Positions 54,727 to 63,358 of a DNA stretch of 64,000 nucleotides are shown one piece after another. Made by a program: the position numbers and the translations under genes. The number at the start of each line of letters is the position of its first letter. Positions within the stretch are counted from its first letter, which is position 1. A model generated the notes under the pieces. The model saw only the letters and a list, made by a program, of their open reading frames with translations. It had not been told where the DNA came from and made no database searches. The DNA lies in the NCBI RefSeq assembly GCF_020532825.1, contig NZ_MQTS01000023.1, positions 1 through 64,000 of the forward strand, in the 5' to 3' direction. The DNA is from Arthrobacter sp. SO3. Its GTDB lineage: Bacteria; Actinomycetota; Actinomycetes; Actinomycetales; Micrococcaceae.

Positions 54727-55620
54727 ATGAGCTTTACATCCTTCGGCCGCATCGAAACCCCCGTCCTGGACATCGGATACGAGTCCGCGGGTGATCCGGG
54801 CGGGACCCCGGTCATCCTCCTACACGGGTTCCCGTACGACGTCCGGGCCTTTGACGACGTCGCTCCGATCCTCGCCGGCCAGGGCGCCTTCGTGCTCGCG
54901 CCGTACCTGCGCGGCTTCGGTCCGACTCGTTTCCTCGATCACACAACGATCCGCTCCGGACAACAAGCCGCCCTCGGGCAGGATCTCCTCGACTTCATGG
55001 ATGCCCTCAACGTCGAGCAGGCAGTCGTTGCCGGCTACGACTGGGGCGGCCGGGCGGCGTGCATTGTGGCGGCACTGGACCCCGGACGCGTCGCCGGACT
55101 CGTCTCGGTCGGCGGCTACAACATGCACAACCTCGCACGCTCCGGCGAACCTGCCGTCCCGGAATGGGAGCGAAGCTACTGGTACCAGTACTACTTCCAC
55201 TCGGAGCGTGGGCGCCGCGGGCTGGAACAAAACCGTGACGAACTGTGCCAGCTGCTATGGCGCACCTGGTCGCCCGGCTGGGACGGCGCACGCCAGGCAT
55301 TTCCCGCCAGCGCGCCGAGCCTGCACAACCCTGACTTCGTCGACGTCGTCATCCACTCCTACCGCCACCGGTACGGACTGGCCGACGGCGACCCCCGCTA
55401 CCAGCGGTTCGAGGACCTGATCGCCCTGGAGCCGAGCATCACCGTCCCGACAGTGGTGCTCGAAAGCGGGGACGACGGCGTCGGCGGCCCCGCGGCGATA
55501 GCAGGCAGAGACCACTTCACCGGCCCCTACAGCCAACGCGTCCTGCCGGGCATTGGACACAACGTTCCGCAAGAGAATCCGGACGCGTTCGCACAATCAG
55601 TGCTGAGCCTGCTCCACTAG
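54727..55620 (+). CDS. Alpha/beta hydrolase, epoxide hydrolase/dehalogenase type
   Basis: The 297-residue enzyme has the oxyanion motif LLHGFPY and the nucleophile elbow AGYDWGGRA with Asp105 in place of Ser, as in epoxide hydrolases and haloalkane dehalogenases. The catalytic His is His278 in GIGHNVPQE. It should open an epoxide or remove a halide, but relatives with other substrates exist. The start at 54727 fits the domain border; the ribosome-binding site is weak. A decayed copy of its 3' end lies at 58680-58767. Confidence 0.85.
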   Translation: MSFTSFGRIETPVLDIGYESAGDPGGTPVILLHGFPYDVRAFDDVAPILAGQGAFVLAPYLRGFGPTRFLDHTTIRSGQQAALGQDLLDFMDALNVEQAVVAGYDWGGRAACIVAALDPGRVAGLVSVGGYNMHNLARSGEPAVPEWERSYWYQYYFHSERGRRGLEQNRDELCQLLWRTWSPGWDGARQAFPASAPSLHNPDFVDVVIHSYRHRYGLADGDPRYQRFEDLIALEPSITVPTVVLESGDDGVGGPAAIAGRDHFTGPYSQRVLPGIGHNVPQENPDAFAQSVLSLLH

Positions 55621-55656
55621 GTGCTTCGCCGCGGTCCGCCAACAGGTGCTAGAGAG

Positions 55657-57695: not shown

Positions 57696-57956
57696 ATGCC
57701 AACATTAATGATCTTCCACGAAGTCGACGACGTTGAGCACTGGCTCAGCTCAACAAAAAGGCAAGACCTGTTCGGGCCGCTGGGCATCACGGTTCGACCA
57801 TTCATCGACCCGGCAAAGAGCCACCGTGTAGGCCTGATCGTCCAAGTCCCCGACATGGAAACCTTCCAGCGAATCATGGAGTCCGAAGAGGCAGCCGAAG
57901 CGATGAAATTCGACGGCGTCCGTCCGGACACAATCCTGACGCTGGTCGAGCCCTAG
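57696..57956 (+). CDS. Small conserved hypothetical protein
   Basis: The 86-residue soluble protein (MPTLMIFHEVDDVEHWLSST...) has an alternating strand/helix pattern like small dimeric alpha/beta-barrel proteins. I cannot assign a function. AGAGG precedes the ATG. It stands alone between the MFS exporter and the histidine phosphatase gene. Confidence 0.7.
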   Translation: MPTLMIFHEVDDVEHWLSSTKRQDLFGPLGITVRPFIDPAKSHRVGLIVQVPDMETFQRIMESEEAAEAMKFDGVRPDTILTLVEP

Positions 57957-58081
57957 GCACCGCCGGGCCCGGCCCTGGTTCCGGTTGCAAGGATGTCCCG
58001 GCGGAGTTCCCGGCCGTTCGGGGGCGGTTGGTGGGACCTCGTAACAACGCCGCCGCCGGGATCCAGTGGAGAATGGAACGC

Positions 58082-58666
58082 ATGACCCTCACGACGTTCG
58101 CCCTTGTCCGCCATGGCCAGACGGACTGGAACGCTCAGCGCCGGCTGCAGGGGTCCACCAACATTCCACTGAACGACGTCGGCCGCGGCCAGTCGCGCGA
58201 CGCCGTCGCCGTCCTGGCCGGCTACGAGTGGGACGCGATTGTGTCGTCGCCGCTGATCCGTGCCGCGGAAACCGCCGACCTCATTGCGGCAGGCCTGGGA
58301 CTCGGCCTCGTCCGCCGCGTACCTGAGCTCACCGAACGCAGCTTTGGACCCGCCGAGGGCCTGCAGGACGGCCCCGAACTGGACGCGCTGCGCATCCCCG
58401 GCGGATTCCGTGGCGCAGAAAGCGAGGACGGTGCAGGCCGCCGCGGGTTGGCCGCGCTCGACGCCCTCGCCGAGGAGTACCGCGGTCGCCGCGTCCTGGT
58501 GGTGGCCCACGGCTCCCTTATCCGTGTGAGCCTCAGCCGTGCTATTGGCCGCACCCTGCAAAGCATCGACAACGCCGCGCTCAACCTGGCCCACCACCAT
58601 CCCGTTGACGGCTGGCAGCTCGAGTACTTCAACGGCGAGCGGATTGTCGCCGGCATTCCGGGCTAA
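58082..58666 (+). CDS. Histidine phosphatase family protein (phosphoglycerate mutase-like)
   Basis: The 194-residue enzyme has the catalytic LVRHGQTDWN motif, with the phospho-accepting His early in the chain, and the second His in VVAHGSLIRV. The short length and PELTERSFGPAEG segment fit the broad-specificity phosphatase branch more than glycolytic mutases. ATGs at 58073 and 58082 are possible; I use the second by motif spacing. Its stop overlaps the convergent GNAT stop. Confidence 0.87.
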   Translation: MTLTTFALVRHGQTDWNAQRRLQGSTNIPLNDVGRGQSRDAVAVLAGYEWDAIVSSPLIRAAETADLIAAGLGLGLVRRVPELTERSFGPAEGLQDGPELDALRIPGGFRGAESEDGAGRRGLAALDALAEEYRGRRVLVVAHGSLIRVSLSRAIGRTLQSIDNAALNLAHHHPVDGWQLEYFNGERIVAGIPG

Positions 58667-59268
58667 TCCGCACTGTCACCTGCAGCCAAAGCGTCCCACC
58701 GGGTGTTGGACACAACGTTCCGCAGGAGAGTCCGAACGCGTTCGCACAGGCCATGGTGAGTCTCTTCGGCAAGGTGTTTCGACGGTGGCCTTTCAGAGCC
58801 CACGTGTGATGCCTCGAAGCCCAGACGCTGATAGAACCGGTGCGCGGCGACCCTGGACCCGTCGGACGTGAGCTGGACCAACTGCGCACCGCGCCGGCGG
58901 CCTTCGTTGATCGCCCAGGTGATCATGGCGCCTCCGAGGCCGTTGCTCCGCAGGTCCGACCGAACGCGCACCGCTTCAATCTGCAGCCTTGTGGCCCCGC
59001 CCCGGGCGAGCCCGGGAATGAATGTCAGCTGCATGGTCGCAACAACCTCATCTGCCGCCGTGACGACGGCGACAAGCAGCTGGGCAGGATCGGCCTCCAT
59101 TGCCTGAAAGGCACGGGTATAGGGATCCCGGTCCTCGATCGCTGCCGGGTCGACGGAGGACCGAAGGGAGTCAGCAGCCATAAGCCCCACGATCGGACCC
59201 ACGTCAGATGCTTCGGCGTTCCGAAGCGTGAACGGACCGCCCGGGAGATCAAGTTCAGCGAGAGTCAT
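58663..59268 (-). CDS. GNAT acetyltransferase with acquired C-terminal tail
   Basis: The 201-residue protein has a GNAT core with the acetyl-CoA loop VRSDLRSNGLGGAMITWAI and the family end RFYQRLGFEASHVG. It should acetylate a small molecule or protein. After this normal end, 44 more residues follow (from SERPPSKHL to DSAD). Most of that tail is encoded by the antisense of a decayed alpha/beta hydrolase 3' end (58680-58767), so the original stop was probably lost and the frame ran into the relic. The start at ATG 59268 has GGGG close upstream. Confidence 0.8.
   Translation of the reverse strand: MTLAELDLPGGPFTLRNAEASDVGPIVGLMAADSLRSSVDPAAIEDRDPYTRAFQAMEADPAQLLVAVVTAADEVVATMQLTFIPGLARGGATRLQIEAVRVRSDLRSNGLGGAMITWAINEGRRRGAQLVQLTSDGSRVAAHRFYQRLGFEASHVGSERPPSKHLAEETHHGLCERVRTLLRNVVSNTRWDALAAGDSAD
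58680..58767 (+). pseudogene. Relic of alpha/beta hydrolase 3' end
   Basis: On the plus strand this reads VPPGVGHNVPQESPNAFAQA and MVSLF, closely matching the C-terminus of the hydrolase at 54727-55620 (VLPGIGHNVPQENPDAFAQS). The DNA match over 58690-58767 is high, by eye above 80%. The rest of the gene is gone. It lies 14 bp after the histidine phosphatase stop and within the GNAT gene on the other strand. Confidence 0.8.
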
Positions 59269-59382
59269 TTCCCCAGTATTCCAGCCACCGGCACGACGGC
59301 TTCGCAGCACTTCAGCCTCTGGTTGTTCGGTGCTCCCTGACACTGAGGCCAGCGCGGGACAGAATCCCTTGGACCTCCTCTG

Positions 59383-59967
59383 TCATGAGGGCTTGGGCCG
59401 CGCGCGTACGTGCATACGCTCTCCCTGCTGTCCAAACAGACTGATGAACTCGACGGGTCTGCCGTCAGCGCTGGCAAACCAGTGCGGTGTGTGGGTGTCG
59501 AATTCCGCAGCTTCGCCGGGGCGAAGTTCAAAGTCCTTGTCGCCCAGCACCAGCCGCAGTCGTCCGTTGAGGATGTAAACCCATTCGTAGCCCTCGTGAA
59601 CGCGCGGGTCGGGCTCTGCCCCGCGGGCATCACCGTCGAGCACCATCTTGAAGGCCTGCAGTCCACCGGGGCGGCGTGTGAGAGGAACAGCCGTCATGCC
59701 GGCATGGGTGATGGGCTGCAGGTGAATTCTCGGATCCCCGGTGGGCGGCGCGCCGACCAGATCATCGAGGGGAACACCGTACAACCTCGCGAGGGGCAAC
59801 AGGATTTCGAGGTTGGGCCTGCGTTGGCCGGATTCCAGGCGGGACAGTGTGCTCACCGATACTCCGGATGCAGAGGACACATCTCCGAGGGTGAGGTTCC
59901 GTTCCGTACGGAGTGCCCGAAGCCGGGGGCCGACCGCCCCAAGAACATCGTCAAGCTCAGTTTCCAT
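59383..59967 (-). CDS. XRE-family regulator with cupin domain
   Basis: The 194-residue protein has an N-terminal XRE helix-turn-helix (LTLGDVSSASGVSVSTLSRLESGQRRPNLEIL) and a C-terminal cupin (VHEGYEWVYILNGRLRLVLGDKDFELRPGEAAEF). GGGGAT precedes ATG 59967; the ATG eight codons upstream lacks a ribosome-binding site. It is divergent from the thioredoxin-reductase-like and methyltransferase genes, an arrangement frequent in actinobacteria, and probably represses them. Confidence 0.9.
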   Translation of the reverse strand: METELDDVLGAVGPRLRALRTERNLTLGDVSSASGVSVSTLSRLESGQRRPNLEILLPLARLYGVPLDDLVGAPPTGDPRIHLQPITHAGMTAVPLTRRPGGLQAFKMVLDGDARGAEPDPRVHEGYEWVYILNGRLRLVLGDKDFELRPGEAAEFDTHTPHWFASADGRPVEFISLFGQQGERMHVRARPKPS

Positions 59968-59974
59968 ATCCCCA

Positions 59975-60006
59975 TTTTGCCATAACGGCAATCATGTTTG
60001 TCAAAA
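59975..60006. promoter_or_regulatory. Candidate XRE operator region
   Basis: Inverted TTTTGNCA (59975-59982) and TGNCAAAA (59999-60006), with an inner TTGCC-N5-GGCAA repeat at 59977-59991. It lies 8 bp from the regulator start and 84 bp before the oxidoreductase start. The AT-rich context fits a promoter. Confidence 0.55.
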
Positions 60007-60089
60007 GTGGTTTATGCGATGGAAGCTGATGTAACCGCCCCAGGACTCCGGCGGCGAAACTTTCAGGACGCGCAGAAGGACAAATCTGT

Positions 60090-61154
60090 ATGGACACCAC
60101 ACGGTATGACGTTGTAATTGTTGGTGGCGGCGCGGCGGGACTCAGCGCCGCCACGACGCTGGGCCGGGCGCTTCGCTCGGTGCTGGTCATCGATTCCGGA
60201 ACTCCACGCAACGGGCCCGCGGCAGGTGTACACGGTTATCTTTCGAGGGACGGCATGAACCCCGGGGAGCTCCTGTCCATCGGACGCAGCGAAGTGCTCT
60301 CCTATGGAGGTACGGTCATTGACGGCGAAGCCGTTTCGGCACGGCGTACCCCCGATGGATTCGAGGTGATACTCGGAGATAGCCGCCGGTTCTCCGGCAG
60401 ACGCCTCCTGGTCACCACCGGCCTGACGGACGAGCTGCCTCCCATCGACGGGCTGCGGGAGCAATGGGGCAACGGCGTTGTGCACTGCCCCTACTGCCAT
60501 GGCTGGGAAATCCGCGGGCAACGGATTGGAGTGCTGGGCACGGGCCCGCTGTCCGTCCATCAGACACTGTTGTTCAGGCAGTGGTCCCCGGACATCACGC
60601 TCTTCCTCAACGACACCGTGGAACCCACCGACGAGGAGTGGGACAAGCTCGCTGCCCGGTCCGTAAGGGTCGTTGACGGTGCCGTGGCTTCTGTCGACGC
60701 TGTCGGTGGTGTCCTCACAGGGCTCACGCTCCGCCAGGGGTCCTCGTTCGACGTACAGGCTCTGGCTGTCGGAACACGGATGGAGGCCAGATCCGAGCTG
60801 CTGGAATCACTCGGGCTAAGTTCCCAGGTGCACCCGTCGGGGGCCGGACGGTTTATCGAGACCGACGCCATGGGCGCGACGGCCGTCCGCGGAGTGTATG
60901 CGGCCGGCAATGTCTCCAACCTAATGGCTCAGGTGATCACCGCGGCGGCCGAGGGTGTCATGAGCGGCGCACGGATCAACGCCGACCTCATCGAGGAGGA
61001 AACCCTGTGGGCCGTTGAGGGGCACTTCGGCCCCTTCTCGGCCGCCTCGGAGGCAGCCGTCTCTAAGATCGTGCTGGGTCACCGACGCCATGGCTTTGAT
61101 GATGGTCGGAAAGCCGCCGGCCTGGGCCCTGCGGCCACAGTAGAAAGACGATGA
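60090..61154 (+). CDS. Thioredoxin reductase-like FAD oxidoreductase
   Basis: The 354-residue flavoprotein has the FAD motif VVIVGGGAAGLSAA (8-21), the redox-active pair Cys133-Cys136 in HCPYCHGWE, an NAD(P)-binding GVLGTGPLSVHQ and the closing GVYAAGNVSN. It resembles thioredoxin reductase but has the CPYC/HGWE form of stand-alone family members that often sit next to XRE regulators and methyltransferases. The physiological electron acceptor is unknown. Its stop overlaps the methyltransferase start (ATGA). Confidence 0.88.
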   Translation: MDTTRYDVVIVGGGAAGLSAATTLGRALRSVLVIDSGTPRNGPAAGVHGYLSRDGMNPGELLSIGRSEVLSYGGTVIDGEAVSARRTPDGFEVILGDSRRFSGRRLLVTTGLTDELPPIDGLREQWGNGVVHCPYCHGWEIRGQRIGVLGTGPLSVHQTLLFRQWSPDITLFLNDTVEPTDEEWDKLAARSVRVVDGAVASVDAVGGVLTGLTLRQGSSFDVQALAVGTRMEARSELLESLGLSSQVHPSGAGRFIETDAMGATAVRGVYAAGNVSNLMAQVITAAAEGVMSGARINADLIEEETLWAVEGHFGPFSAASEAAVSKIVLGHRRHGFDDGRKAAGLGPAATVERR

Positions 61155-61945
61155 ACATGGATCACCAGCACCACCAGCGATCTGCCAGCCATGACCAGCA
61201 CCGCGTCCTCGACCTCGATGCCGAGGTGTTCGGCGACCACCTCGCTGCAGTCCTGGACTTGACCGGGGTGCCTGCCGCGCGCAGCGTCGTTGACCTCGGC
61301 GCCGGCACCGGCGCAGGTAGTCGGCTGCTTCGCCAGCGGTACCCCGACGCCGCGGTGACGTGCGTCGACAACGACCCGCAGATGCTCGAGCTGCTGCGCG
61401 GACAGGGCTTCACCGTGGTCGAGGCCGACCTCGACGACGGCTTCCCTGCCCTGGCCGGCCCCTTGATCGCGGCGGATGCAGCGGCCGAGGCGCCCGTTGA
61501 CCTGGTGTGGGCATCGTCCTCGCTGCACCACGTTGCCCACCCCGCACGGCTGCTGTCGGGGGTCCGCCGGGCACTGGCGCAGGGCGGGGTCCTGGCCGTC
61601 GTCGAGCTCGCCGGTCTGCCCCGCTTCCTGAGCCATACGCGCGGGGCGCTGCTGGAGCAGCGCTGCCATGCCGCTGCGGAGGCCGAGGGGTGGAACCACC
61701 ACCCGGACTGGACGCGGGTCATCGAGGCCGCAGGGTTCGATGTCACCATGTCCGAGGTGACGGCCGTCGCACCCGTGACTCCGGCTGCACGGGAGTACGC
61801 CCAGCAATGGTTCGCGCGCTTCTCGGACCTGGCGGCTCTGACCGCGGACGACCGCGACGCCTTGGAAGAGCTGCTGGAGCGGTTCTCCGACATCGAGCTG
61901 GAACCCCGCGCCACCCGGACCGTCTGGGTGGCCACCCCCGACTAG
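61151..61945 (+). CDS. Class I SAM-dependent methyltransferase
   Basis: The 264-residue protein has SAM motif I VVDLGAGTGAGSRLL, the acidic loop CVDNDPQML and a post-motif LVWASSSLHHVAHPARLL. The His-rich N-terminus (MNMDHQHHQRSASHDQH) is unusual and could bind metal. It is translationally coupled to the FAD oxidoreductase by a four-base overlap. The substrate is unknown. Confidence 0.88.
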   Translation: MNMDHQHHQRSASHDQHRVLDLDAEVFGDHLAAVLDLTGVPAARSVVDLGAGTGAGSRLLRQRYPDAAVTCVDNDPQMLELLRGQGFTVVEADLDDGFPALAGPLIAADAAAEAPVDLVWASSSLHHVAHPARLLSGVRRALAQGGVLAVVELAGLPRFLSHTRGALLEQRCHAAAEAEGWNHHPDWTRVIEAAGFDVTMSEVTAVAPVTPAAREYAQQWFARFSDLAALTADDRDALEELLERFSDIELEPRATRTVWVATPD

Positions 61946-62107
61946 AACCAGGAGCTGCCCTGAGCGAGCACGTCCCGAAGCAGAACCGTCCCAGAAGGCT
62001 CTCCGGCCTTGGGTTTCACATGCAAAAAGTCGCAGCTGGTGTAATCGAAGTATTGTTCGAGGACGGACGCCAGCACGGCTAGCAGGGGTCGGGTGCTTGT
62101 TTGTCGG

Positions 62108-62713
62108 CTACTTCTCGCAGCCGACCCCGTCGCCGTCGCGGTCCAGGCTGCGGCTGTAGCCTGGCTGGCCGGCGTAGATCGGAGCTGCTCCGGCCGCTTT
62201 CACGGCGGTGCAGTTCGCGTAGAACGCTGCGGGTGCCGGTGCGGGGGCCACGTAGGGCGCAGGTGCGGGTGCCGGGGCCACGTAGGGCGCGGGCACGGCA
62301 GCGGGTGCCGGGGCCACGTAGGGGGCCGGGGCAGCAACTACTGGTGCGGGTTCCGCAGTCGTTGGGGTCGGGGTTGGCGTCGGCGTGGCTTCCGTGAGGT
62401 GCCTGACGCCGAGGTTTACGGTGGTTCCCTTGGCCACTTGGGCACCTTCGTTAGGGTCCTGGGAAGTGACCTGCCAGTTCTTCTTGGCAATGATCGACTT
62501 GCCGTCGGTAGTGTCCACAGCTTCGACTCTGAGCCCCAGGTCCTTTAACTGATCGGTGGCTTTATCGAGCGTCAAGCCCATCACGCCTGGAACCGTTACG
62601 GTATCCGCGGCTGCCGGGACAGCAGTCGCGGTCGGCTGCGTCGCAGCTTGCTTGCCGCCGCATCCGGTCAGCATGAGGCCGGCCAGCACAACCAATGTCA
62701 GTGTCTTCTTCAA
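62108..62713 (-). CDS. PASTA-excalibur lipoprotein
   Basis: The 201-residue protein has a lipobox LTGC (Cys18), one PASTA domain (about 38-105, with TVTVPGVMGLTLDKATDQLKDLG), a Pro/Ala/Thr linker with repeated APAPYVAP units (about 107-163) and a C-terminal excalibur domain ending DRDGDGVGCEK, a calcium-binding-like loop. PASTA domains bind peptidoglycan fragments. It is probably anchored outside the membrane and touches the cell wall. The repeats are encoded by three GGGGCCACGTAGGG units in the plus strand. Confidence 0.88.
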   Translation of the reverse strand: MKKTLTLVVLAGLMLTGCGGKQAATQPTATAVPAAADTVTVPGVMGLTLDKATDQLKDLGLRVEAVDTTDGKSIIAKKNWQVTSQDPNEGAQVAKGTTVNLGVRHLTEATPTPTPTPTTAEPAPVVAAPAPYVAPAPAAVPAPYVAPAPAPAPYVAPAPAPAAFYANCTAVKAAGAAPIYAGQPGYSRSLDRDGDGVGCEK

Positions 62714-62902
62714 TTTTCCCCCTGCCGGGTTGCCCCGGTGAACTATGGCGCTGCCGGAACTGTCAGGAAGGGCGTGAATGCCAGAAGCTTCCGAAGGGCT
62801 CGCTGGGCAACAAGCTATCAGTTGAAGGGGCAGGCGGGGGCGGACATGCCCGATTACAACGTTTGCCGAGCTATTTCACCGGTGAGGAATTCCGAGCTTG
62901 CT

Positions 62903-63067
62903 TTAGTTGACGGCTGTTCTGGAGAGCCTCCGCGCGATCAGAAGCTCGTTCGCAGCGCAAGTGTTCATCGCCTTCTGCACCAGCACCTCGGTGCGGCTCT
63001 CCACCGAGCTCGTGGCCTCGTCCGGGATCAGTACGGATGGGCGGGCCAGGAACGCCCGGGCGATGTT
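62903..63067 (-). pseudogene. ABC exporter ATPase remnant (Walker B to H-loop)
   Basis: The minus strand reads [20 protein letters not shown] then [16 protein letters not shown] and LLIARRLS, then stops. This is the Walker B/D-loop/H-loop segment of an ABC exporter ATPase. The Walker A and signature motifs are absent, Leu before the Walker B Asp is now Pro and the switch His is lost. It is a decayed fragment of about 55 codons. Confidence 0.75.
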
Positions 63068-63072
63068 GTCCG

Positions 63073-63106
63073 GTGTCGGACGGCGGGACTTCCCGCCGTC
63101 CTACAC
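63073..63106. terminator. Hairpin terminator, GACGGCGGGA family copy 3
   Basis: A 15-bp stem with one mismatch around core GGACGGCGGGA, loop CT. It lies beside the ABC remnant, about 250 bp past the glutamate decarboxylase stop. It has the same core as the hairpins at 7935-7965 and 20187-20222. Confidence 0.7.
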
Positions 63107-63358
63107 TTGCGTTGTGTGCCCCCTGGCAGGTATTCCATGAATCGTCAGCGGCACCGGCCGCCACCGCGGACACGGCGCCGCACGTATAGTCCGGCAGCTC
63201 GGCGCCCATCATGAAATGCAAACGGGATGAAACCCGCTGCGCGCTCTACCTCATCCTCGCCGCTGACGCCTCCAGGCCGGGGAACACGGTAGATGTGATC
63301 CCCTTCCCGCATCAGCCCGGTCGGGATGTGCCGGAGCCGGAGTCACCGTTGCACTGAA

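Follow-up and report, generated by a model that had tools for sequence, protein, structure and literature searches.

A GNAT acetyltransferase gene of Arthrobacter sp. SO3 that runs on through the antisense strand of a hydrolase remnant

When a gene loses its stop codon and its reading frame continues through the opposite strand of a decaying neighbor, has the protein gained a new part, or has it only lost its old end? The question is raised by a GNAT acetyltransferase gene in the 64,000-nucleotide window, by which we mean the whole stretch of Arthrobacter sp. SO3 DNA analyzed here. The GNAT frame (59268-58663, minus strand) continues for 44 codons past the normal GNAT body. A sequence-only reading had placed this tail at 58663-58797, which a codon map confirmed exactly, and had called it a new coding tail made from the antisense of a dead alpha/beta hydrolase. 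The antisense origin held up. A gain for the protein is less well supported, because the conserved C-terminal end of the GNAT was lost along with its stop, and the tail is predicted to fold with low confidence.

Anatomy of the extended reading frame

The tail consists of GNAT codons 158-201 (58797-58666), followed by a TAG stop at 58665-58663. Behind the eight codons that descend from the region of the old GNAT end (Table 1), codons 166-199 read the remnant of the hydrolase in antisense, codon on codon. The last two codons and the stop lie in the flank of the phosphatase gene, and codon 199 sits on the junction. The former hydrolase stop is now AAG (58771-58773), which the GNAT frame reads as CTT, codon 166. 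The frame ends at a TAG that arises where the phosphatase stop (TAA, 58664-58666, plus strand) is read on the reverse strand. As a result, the two genes overlap by four bases, CTAA, with both stops included.

Table 1. Coordinates of the features discussed, numbered from the first base of the window
Feature	Position	Strand	Evidence
GNAT acetyltransferase, 201 codons	58666..59268	-	Pfam Acetyltransf_1 2.1e-13, residues 46-151
C-terminal extension, 44 codons and TAG stop	58663..58797	-	Codon map; TGA of relatives at the old end
Tail codons 158-165, from the surroundings of the old stop and the former GNAT/hydrolase spacer	58774..58797	-	Alignments to G069, G030 and G215
3'-end remnant of alpha/beta hydrolase, ~34 codons	58671..58773	+	blastn; codon-position pattern without constraint
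Host flank, left edge of the replaced block	58663..58673	.	Homology to G080 ends at 58673
Histidine phosphatase (phosphoglycerate-mutase-like), convergent with GNAT	58082..58666	+	Pfam His_Phos_1 1e-39 (58070-58666)
Block in the place of 829 bp in G080	58674..63225	.	blastn of the G080 region against the window
Intact alpha/beta hydrolase, comparison gene	54727..55620	+	Syntenic G080 orthologue, 94% identical

Three relatives from the genus (G069, G030 and G215) carry homologous DNA behind the TGA of their GNAT gene, which identifies the event in the window as a stop loss. Aligned to G069, the window shows a single clean 12-bp gap that deletes the conserved GNAT end and the stop. Aligned to G030 and G215, it shows a 13-bp gap and one extra base at the old GNAT end, and in this type of alignment only, the old TGA is kept one base out of frame (58795-58793). 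The net loss of 12 bp is sited within the stretch of codons 158-165. Missing from the window protein are the last five residues of its close relatives (FKLLL, FKLSL or FKLML) and then the TGA. The earlier description of a frame that continues after the normal end was therefore right about the run-on of 44 codons and needs amending as to the end itself, which is gone.

The body of the gene is that of an ordinary GNAT. Its profile score for PF00583 was 51 bits (curated cut-off, 20.7), and the acetyl-CoA loop of the superfamily, which we take to be R/Q-x-x-G-x-G/A, is present as R107-S-N-G-L-G112. Among 42 sequences, G112 was invariant, and R107 and G110 were found in at least 90%. A longer frame from a GTG at 59343 is also available, but comparison with the relatives favors the ATG at 59268. 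Directly before this ATG lies GCTGGAATACTGGGGAA (59269-59285), a sequence common to G069 and partly to G030 and G215, which may contain a putative -10 element close to the GNAT start. The sole promoter-like site near the junction (59337-59365) is on the plus strand and does not point into the GNAT gene. No terminators were found near the junction; since 0.5 would be expected by chance, nothing follows from their absence.

The dN/dS ratio of the GNAT body was 0.20 in comparison with G069 and 0.12 to 0.16 in comparison with six other orthologues. Pairs of orthologues that exclude the window gene gave 0.11 to 0.14, and the near-identical pair G030/G215 gave 0.19. These low values argue for constraint on the body over most of its history, and the gene may be working still, tail included.

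GNAT relatives and the former convergent partner

We searched 206 genomes of the genus, one genome per species. Unbroken close orthologues of the GNAT were present in eight of them (the genome of the window itself, G069, G087, G219, G215, G030, G084 and G139), marking it as an accessory gene. Seven of the eight end in FKLLL, FKLSL or FKLML and then TGA at the old end, with the genome of the window as the sole exception. The GNAT of Arthrobacter sp. H16F315 has the same end as that of G215. The gene is broken in G117 too (L139 9311-9666), where the match to the orthologue was limited to residues 1-80 and 120-157 and was split between two frames.

The lost end is also conserved in wider sets of relatives. 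A lysine corresponding to K159 was kept in 41 of 41 other relatives, which were picked by hand for spread. A [SATGD]HxGxK motif with three to nine residues after it occurred in 88 of 93 distinct proteins from 109 loci, the five proteins without it being distant or partial matches; 23 loci were excluded from this count (six window-place copies, 12 long regions and five cassette loci). The window protein lacks the C-terminal HxG[FM]K or similar motif and, in its predicted structure, the last beta strand that mark the close 1z4e-like GNAT group.

An intact alpha/beta hydrolase gene stands tail to tail with the GNAT in G030 and G215, with 18 bp between its stop and the GNAT stop, TGA. The facing hydrolases have 88 to 89% protein identity to the intact hydrolase of the window. 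In G069, the GNAT stop is normal and the spacing is the same 18 bp, and about 15 of the last hydrolase codons are kept with their TAG. Because the truncation point differs between G069 and the window, the two hydrolase truncations were probably independent. No hydrolase was found directly after the close GNAT in G087, G219, G084 or G139.

Elsewhere, a hydrolase gene lies about 5 kb from the GNAT in G139 and about 10 kb from it in G069 (L138, L135, L146, L143). Its distance from the gene for an 86-residue protein is about 0.7 to 2.1 kb in G069, G080 and the window, and 10 kb in G212. Given these varying places, the hydrolase seems to be a moving accessory gene. The 86-residue protein (window 57696-57956) is 86 to 93% identical in G069, G080 and G212 and has no Pfam or NCBIfam match at E ≤0.001.

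The remnant itself was readily identified. The plus strand at 58671-58784 is identical to 55518-55631, which spans the 3' end of the intact hydrolase gene and the first flanking bases, at 89 of 114 positions (78%, blastn E 3e-23). The local alignment score was 57, whereas the best of 500 single-base shuffles reached 17. At E ≤0.001, the remnant and the intact gene were the only two such places in the genome. That the relic is dead, as had been proposed, is borne out by the pattern of its changes. Against nine intact hydrolases, its differences at codon positions 1:2:3 were 61:49:73 (32 codons), whereas the intact genes differed among themselves in the ratio 170:90:369 (33 codons); the sequences behind these counts are related and enter more than once, so that the figures serve only as description. 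At columns invariant in the nine hydrolases, the remnant carried seven changes, 3:4:0 at the three hydrolase positions, whereas an intact hydrolase left out in turn showed between 0 and 5 changes at otherwise invariant columns. Because the remnant has changed at all three codon positions, unlike the intact genes, the constraint of a hydrolase has been lost.

The start of the remnant, at 58671, coincides with the left edge of a block that occupies the place of other DNA in a syntenic relative. The relative G080 is syntenic with the window over the hydrolase, an ArsR-like gene, an MFS gene, the 86-residue protein and the phosphatase (92 to 96% protein identity; 92% for the phosphatase). Its DNA homology stops at window position 58673 and restarts at 63226, first with 37 bp, so that 4.55 kb of the window stands in place of 829 bp. 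The 829 bp of G080 (L143 12830-13658) hold a reading frame that, by eye, resembles a PadR-type regulator. The block contains the remnant, the GNAT and, among further genes, an XRE-like regulator, a thioredoxin-reductase-like gene and a methyltransferase-like gene, all three named from matches below curated cut-offs. The latter three (59383-61945), which adjoin the GNAT in the window, recur together within the genus as a cassette of about 2.4 to 2.6 kb with 80 to 90% DNA identity, for example in G115 (90% over 2.6 kb), G031, G095, G132, G035, G060 and G208. Since this right-hand part is found as a unit in other genomes of the genus, the block seems to be composite.

Origin, distribution and fate of the tail

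We evaluated how unusual an open tail of this length is. The triplets that give antisense stops in codon register (TTA, CTA and TCA) made up 0.6% of 71,657 codons, so a stretch of 34 codons would stay open with a probability of 0.81. If stops were lost, 27 of 53 genes with a convergent neighbor would gain at least 44 codons. The null sample was made up of called open reading frames no shorter than 150 residues, 194 genes in all, drawn from the window and 12 regions; for 181 of them the run-on ended inside the stretch. The open length of 44 codons is thus unremarkable.

Among the genomes searched, the open tail is confined to one. With two candidates scored per genome, it was found in none of the 206 genus genomes other than its own, and a GNAT that carries the tail beside no remnant, which would speak against the proposed origin, did not occur among the searched genomes. 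The tail was also absent from 59 relatives, a set that largely repeats another set of relatives, and from 42 contig-scan loci, searched with patterns that included one tail peptide and possibly without near records of the window's own genome. Among the matches listed for 395 genomes of the family at E ≤1e-15, only G030, apart from the window's own genome, passed query base 494, and it has its stop. No orthologous open tail was found for a rate calculation. A match in G169, from another family, reached residue 194 with one TGA. The GNAT there ends in GFKYAVPRG and then TGA, no hydrolase match was found at E <0.01 within 8 kb around it, and the extra stretch looks like a chance match.

AlphaFold2 models of the G069 and window proteins differ at the C terminus. 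The G069 model (mean pLDDT 91.8) ends in a last strand at 158-161. In the window model, this strand is absent, the blocks of the tail average pLDDT values of 35 to 59, and residues 171-188 are predicted to form a weak helix, within blocks averaging 56 and 52. Both models match 1z4e best, from which the core fold is predicted to survive despite the tail.

Taken together, these observations are best explained by the following history, which we consider likely. In the ancestral state, the GNAT and hydrolase genes would have converged on each other, their stops 18 bp apart. In the lineage of the window's genome, the hydrolase would then have been cut to approximately its last 34 codons as the segment was brought next to the phosphatase gene, and the net loss of 12 bp would have taken the last GNAT residues and the stop. 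The GNAT frame would have stayed in the codon register of the hydrolase, where antisense stops are rare in GC-rich DNA, and would have run on to the first stop, that on the reverse strand of the phosphatase stop. The tail itself would be neutral or harmful, a by-product left in an accessory gene and not a selected part of it.

The identity of the remnant bears on this history. The sequence-only reading had matched it to the intact gene at 54727-55620, and it might be a decayed duplicate of that gene placed beside the GNAT. The two lie within 4 kb of each other and match at 78%, and a hydrolase tree sets the remnant beside the hydrolases of the window, G080 and G060 (support, 0.66), not beside those of G030 and G215, which are on a long branch and to which the remnant is 72% identical. 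Its blastn identity to the hydrolases of the window, G080, G193, G069, G139, G060 and G212 ranged from 77.5 to 86%; it is nearer to G193 (86%), the other copy of G069 (84%) and G080 (82%) than to the local gene, and its position, orientation and spacing to the GNAT are those seen in G030, G215 and G069. We therefore regard a local duplication as unlikely. The match stands. The position of the remnant, its spacing and its start at the block edge make it most likely that it is what was left of the gene that once converged on the GNAT, although its roughly 100 bases are too short to settle which copy was its source. It is appreciably less probable still that the fusion was made by an assembly or base-count error, for example an extra A in GAAAGG after a true 13-bp deletion: a deletion of 13 bp is unusual as a base-calling error, and the alignment to G069 needs only one clean 12-bp gap. 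An error would fit the extra base in the alignments to G030 and G215, themselves a near-identical pair, and the state of the source genome, a single draft assembly of 248 contigs. A published survey, moreover, attributed 124 of 178 long convergent overlaps to a 3' end lengthened either by error or by mutation of the stop (PMC2478687).

What the run-on means for the protein can be read in opposite ways. The GNAT may be a first-stage pseudogene, killed by the loss of its last strand and conserved lysine, with the tail as the visible trace. This reading is a sharper form of the preferred history and compatible with it, and it draws on the loss of K159 and on the accessory nature of a gene that is broken in G117. 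The body is intact, however, with the stretch before the start and the RSNGLG loop both kept, and dN/dS is raised only slightly; we hold a dead GNAT to be possible rather than probable. At the other extreme, the tail could be a working new part kept by selection, with the helix at 171-188 serving, for example, in folding or binding. The frame that stayed open for 44 codons, the purifying selection on the body and the helix prediction would agree with such a role. Against it, the open tail occurs in one of the genomes searched, whereas a de novo gain under selection would be expected in more than one lineage, with constraint in the new frame; chance alone predicts a tail this long; the helix falls in low-confidence blocks; and the seven changes in the remnant show no sparing of GNAT codon positions 1 and 2, a number too small to decide. 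A working tail is improbable, and slightly more so the specific proposal that a functional segment, derived from the in-register antisense of the dead hydrolase, has taken the place of the ancestral last strand of the GNAT. The by-product history thus remains the one we prefer.

Implications and comparison with known systems

The locus and its relatives form a natural series for antisense-derived tails, from a full facing neighbor (G030, G215) through a shortened one (G069) to the open tail of the window. Because stops are scarce in antisense frames read in codon register, GC-rich DNA yields such tails at little cost, and the window tail warns that open length alone is no evidence of function. 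No long-standing question depends on the tail unless it is proven to be expressed and needed. If the functional-segment reading were true, the locus would show antisense sequence caught in the act of becoming part of a domain, a step eased by how open in-register antisense frames are in GC-rich genomes.

A tail acquired by stop loss is a known kind of event, and the window offers a new, well-documented instance. A narrow literature search found no publication on the exact case, which is weak evidence of its absence from print. Compensating indel pairs have been described in animals (PMC8935012). Among structures, 1z4e, a GNAT of Bacillus halodurans with a 153-residue chain, was the best match to a profile of 41 relatives (3.2e-53) and ranked first by fold for both the window and G069 models. 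It ends in SHEGLKMH like the relatives, whereas the window protein is without that end and has 44 other residues instead.

Recent de novo C termini formed by stop-codon loss have been reported in yeast and fly, where they are polymorphic within species (Andreatta et al. 2015, PMC4494051). As in those cases, an existing protein of the window acquired a tail from formerly noncoding sequence after stop loss; unlike them, it drew this tail from the strand opposite a gene remnant and also lost conserved residues at its end. Convergent overlaps in prokaryotes likewise arise by stop-codon movement (PMC4161906, PMC2478687) and are often confused with errors (PMC2478687). The window resembles such pairs in that loss of a stop let a gene grow at its 3' end across the reverse strand of its convergent neighbor. 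It differs in that the neighbor is already a remnant, and most of the tail overlaps no second gene. Finally, the antisense overprinting genes of Escherichia coli, which are reported as separate genes with expression data (PMC4683798, PMC5810103, PMC5960689), likewise owe their coding sequence to the other strand, or to a different frame, of a gene, whereas the tail described here is known from sequence alone and is an old gene extended over a dead one.
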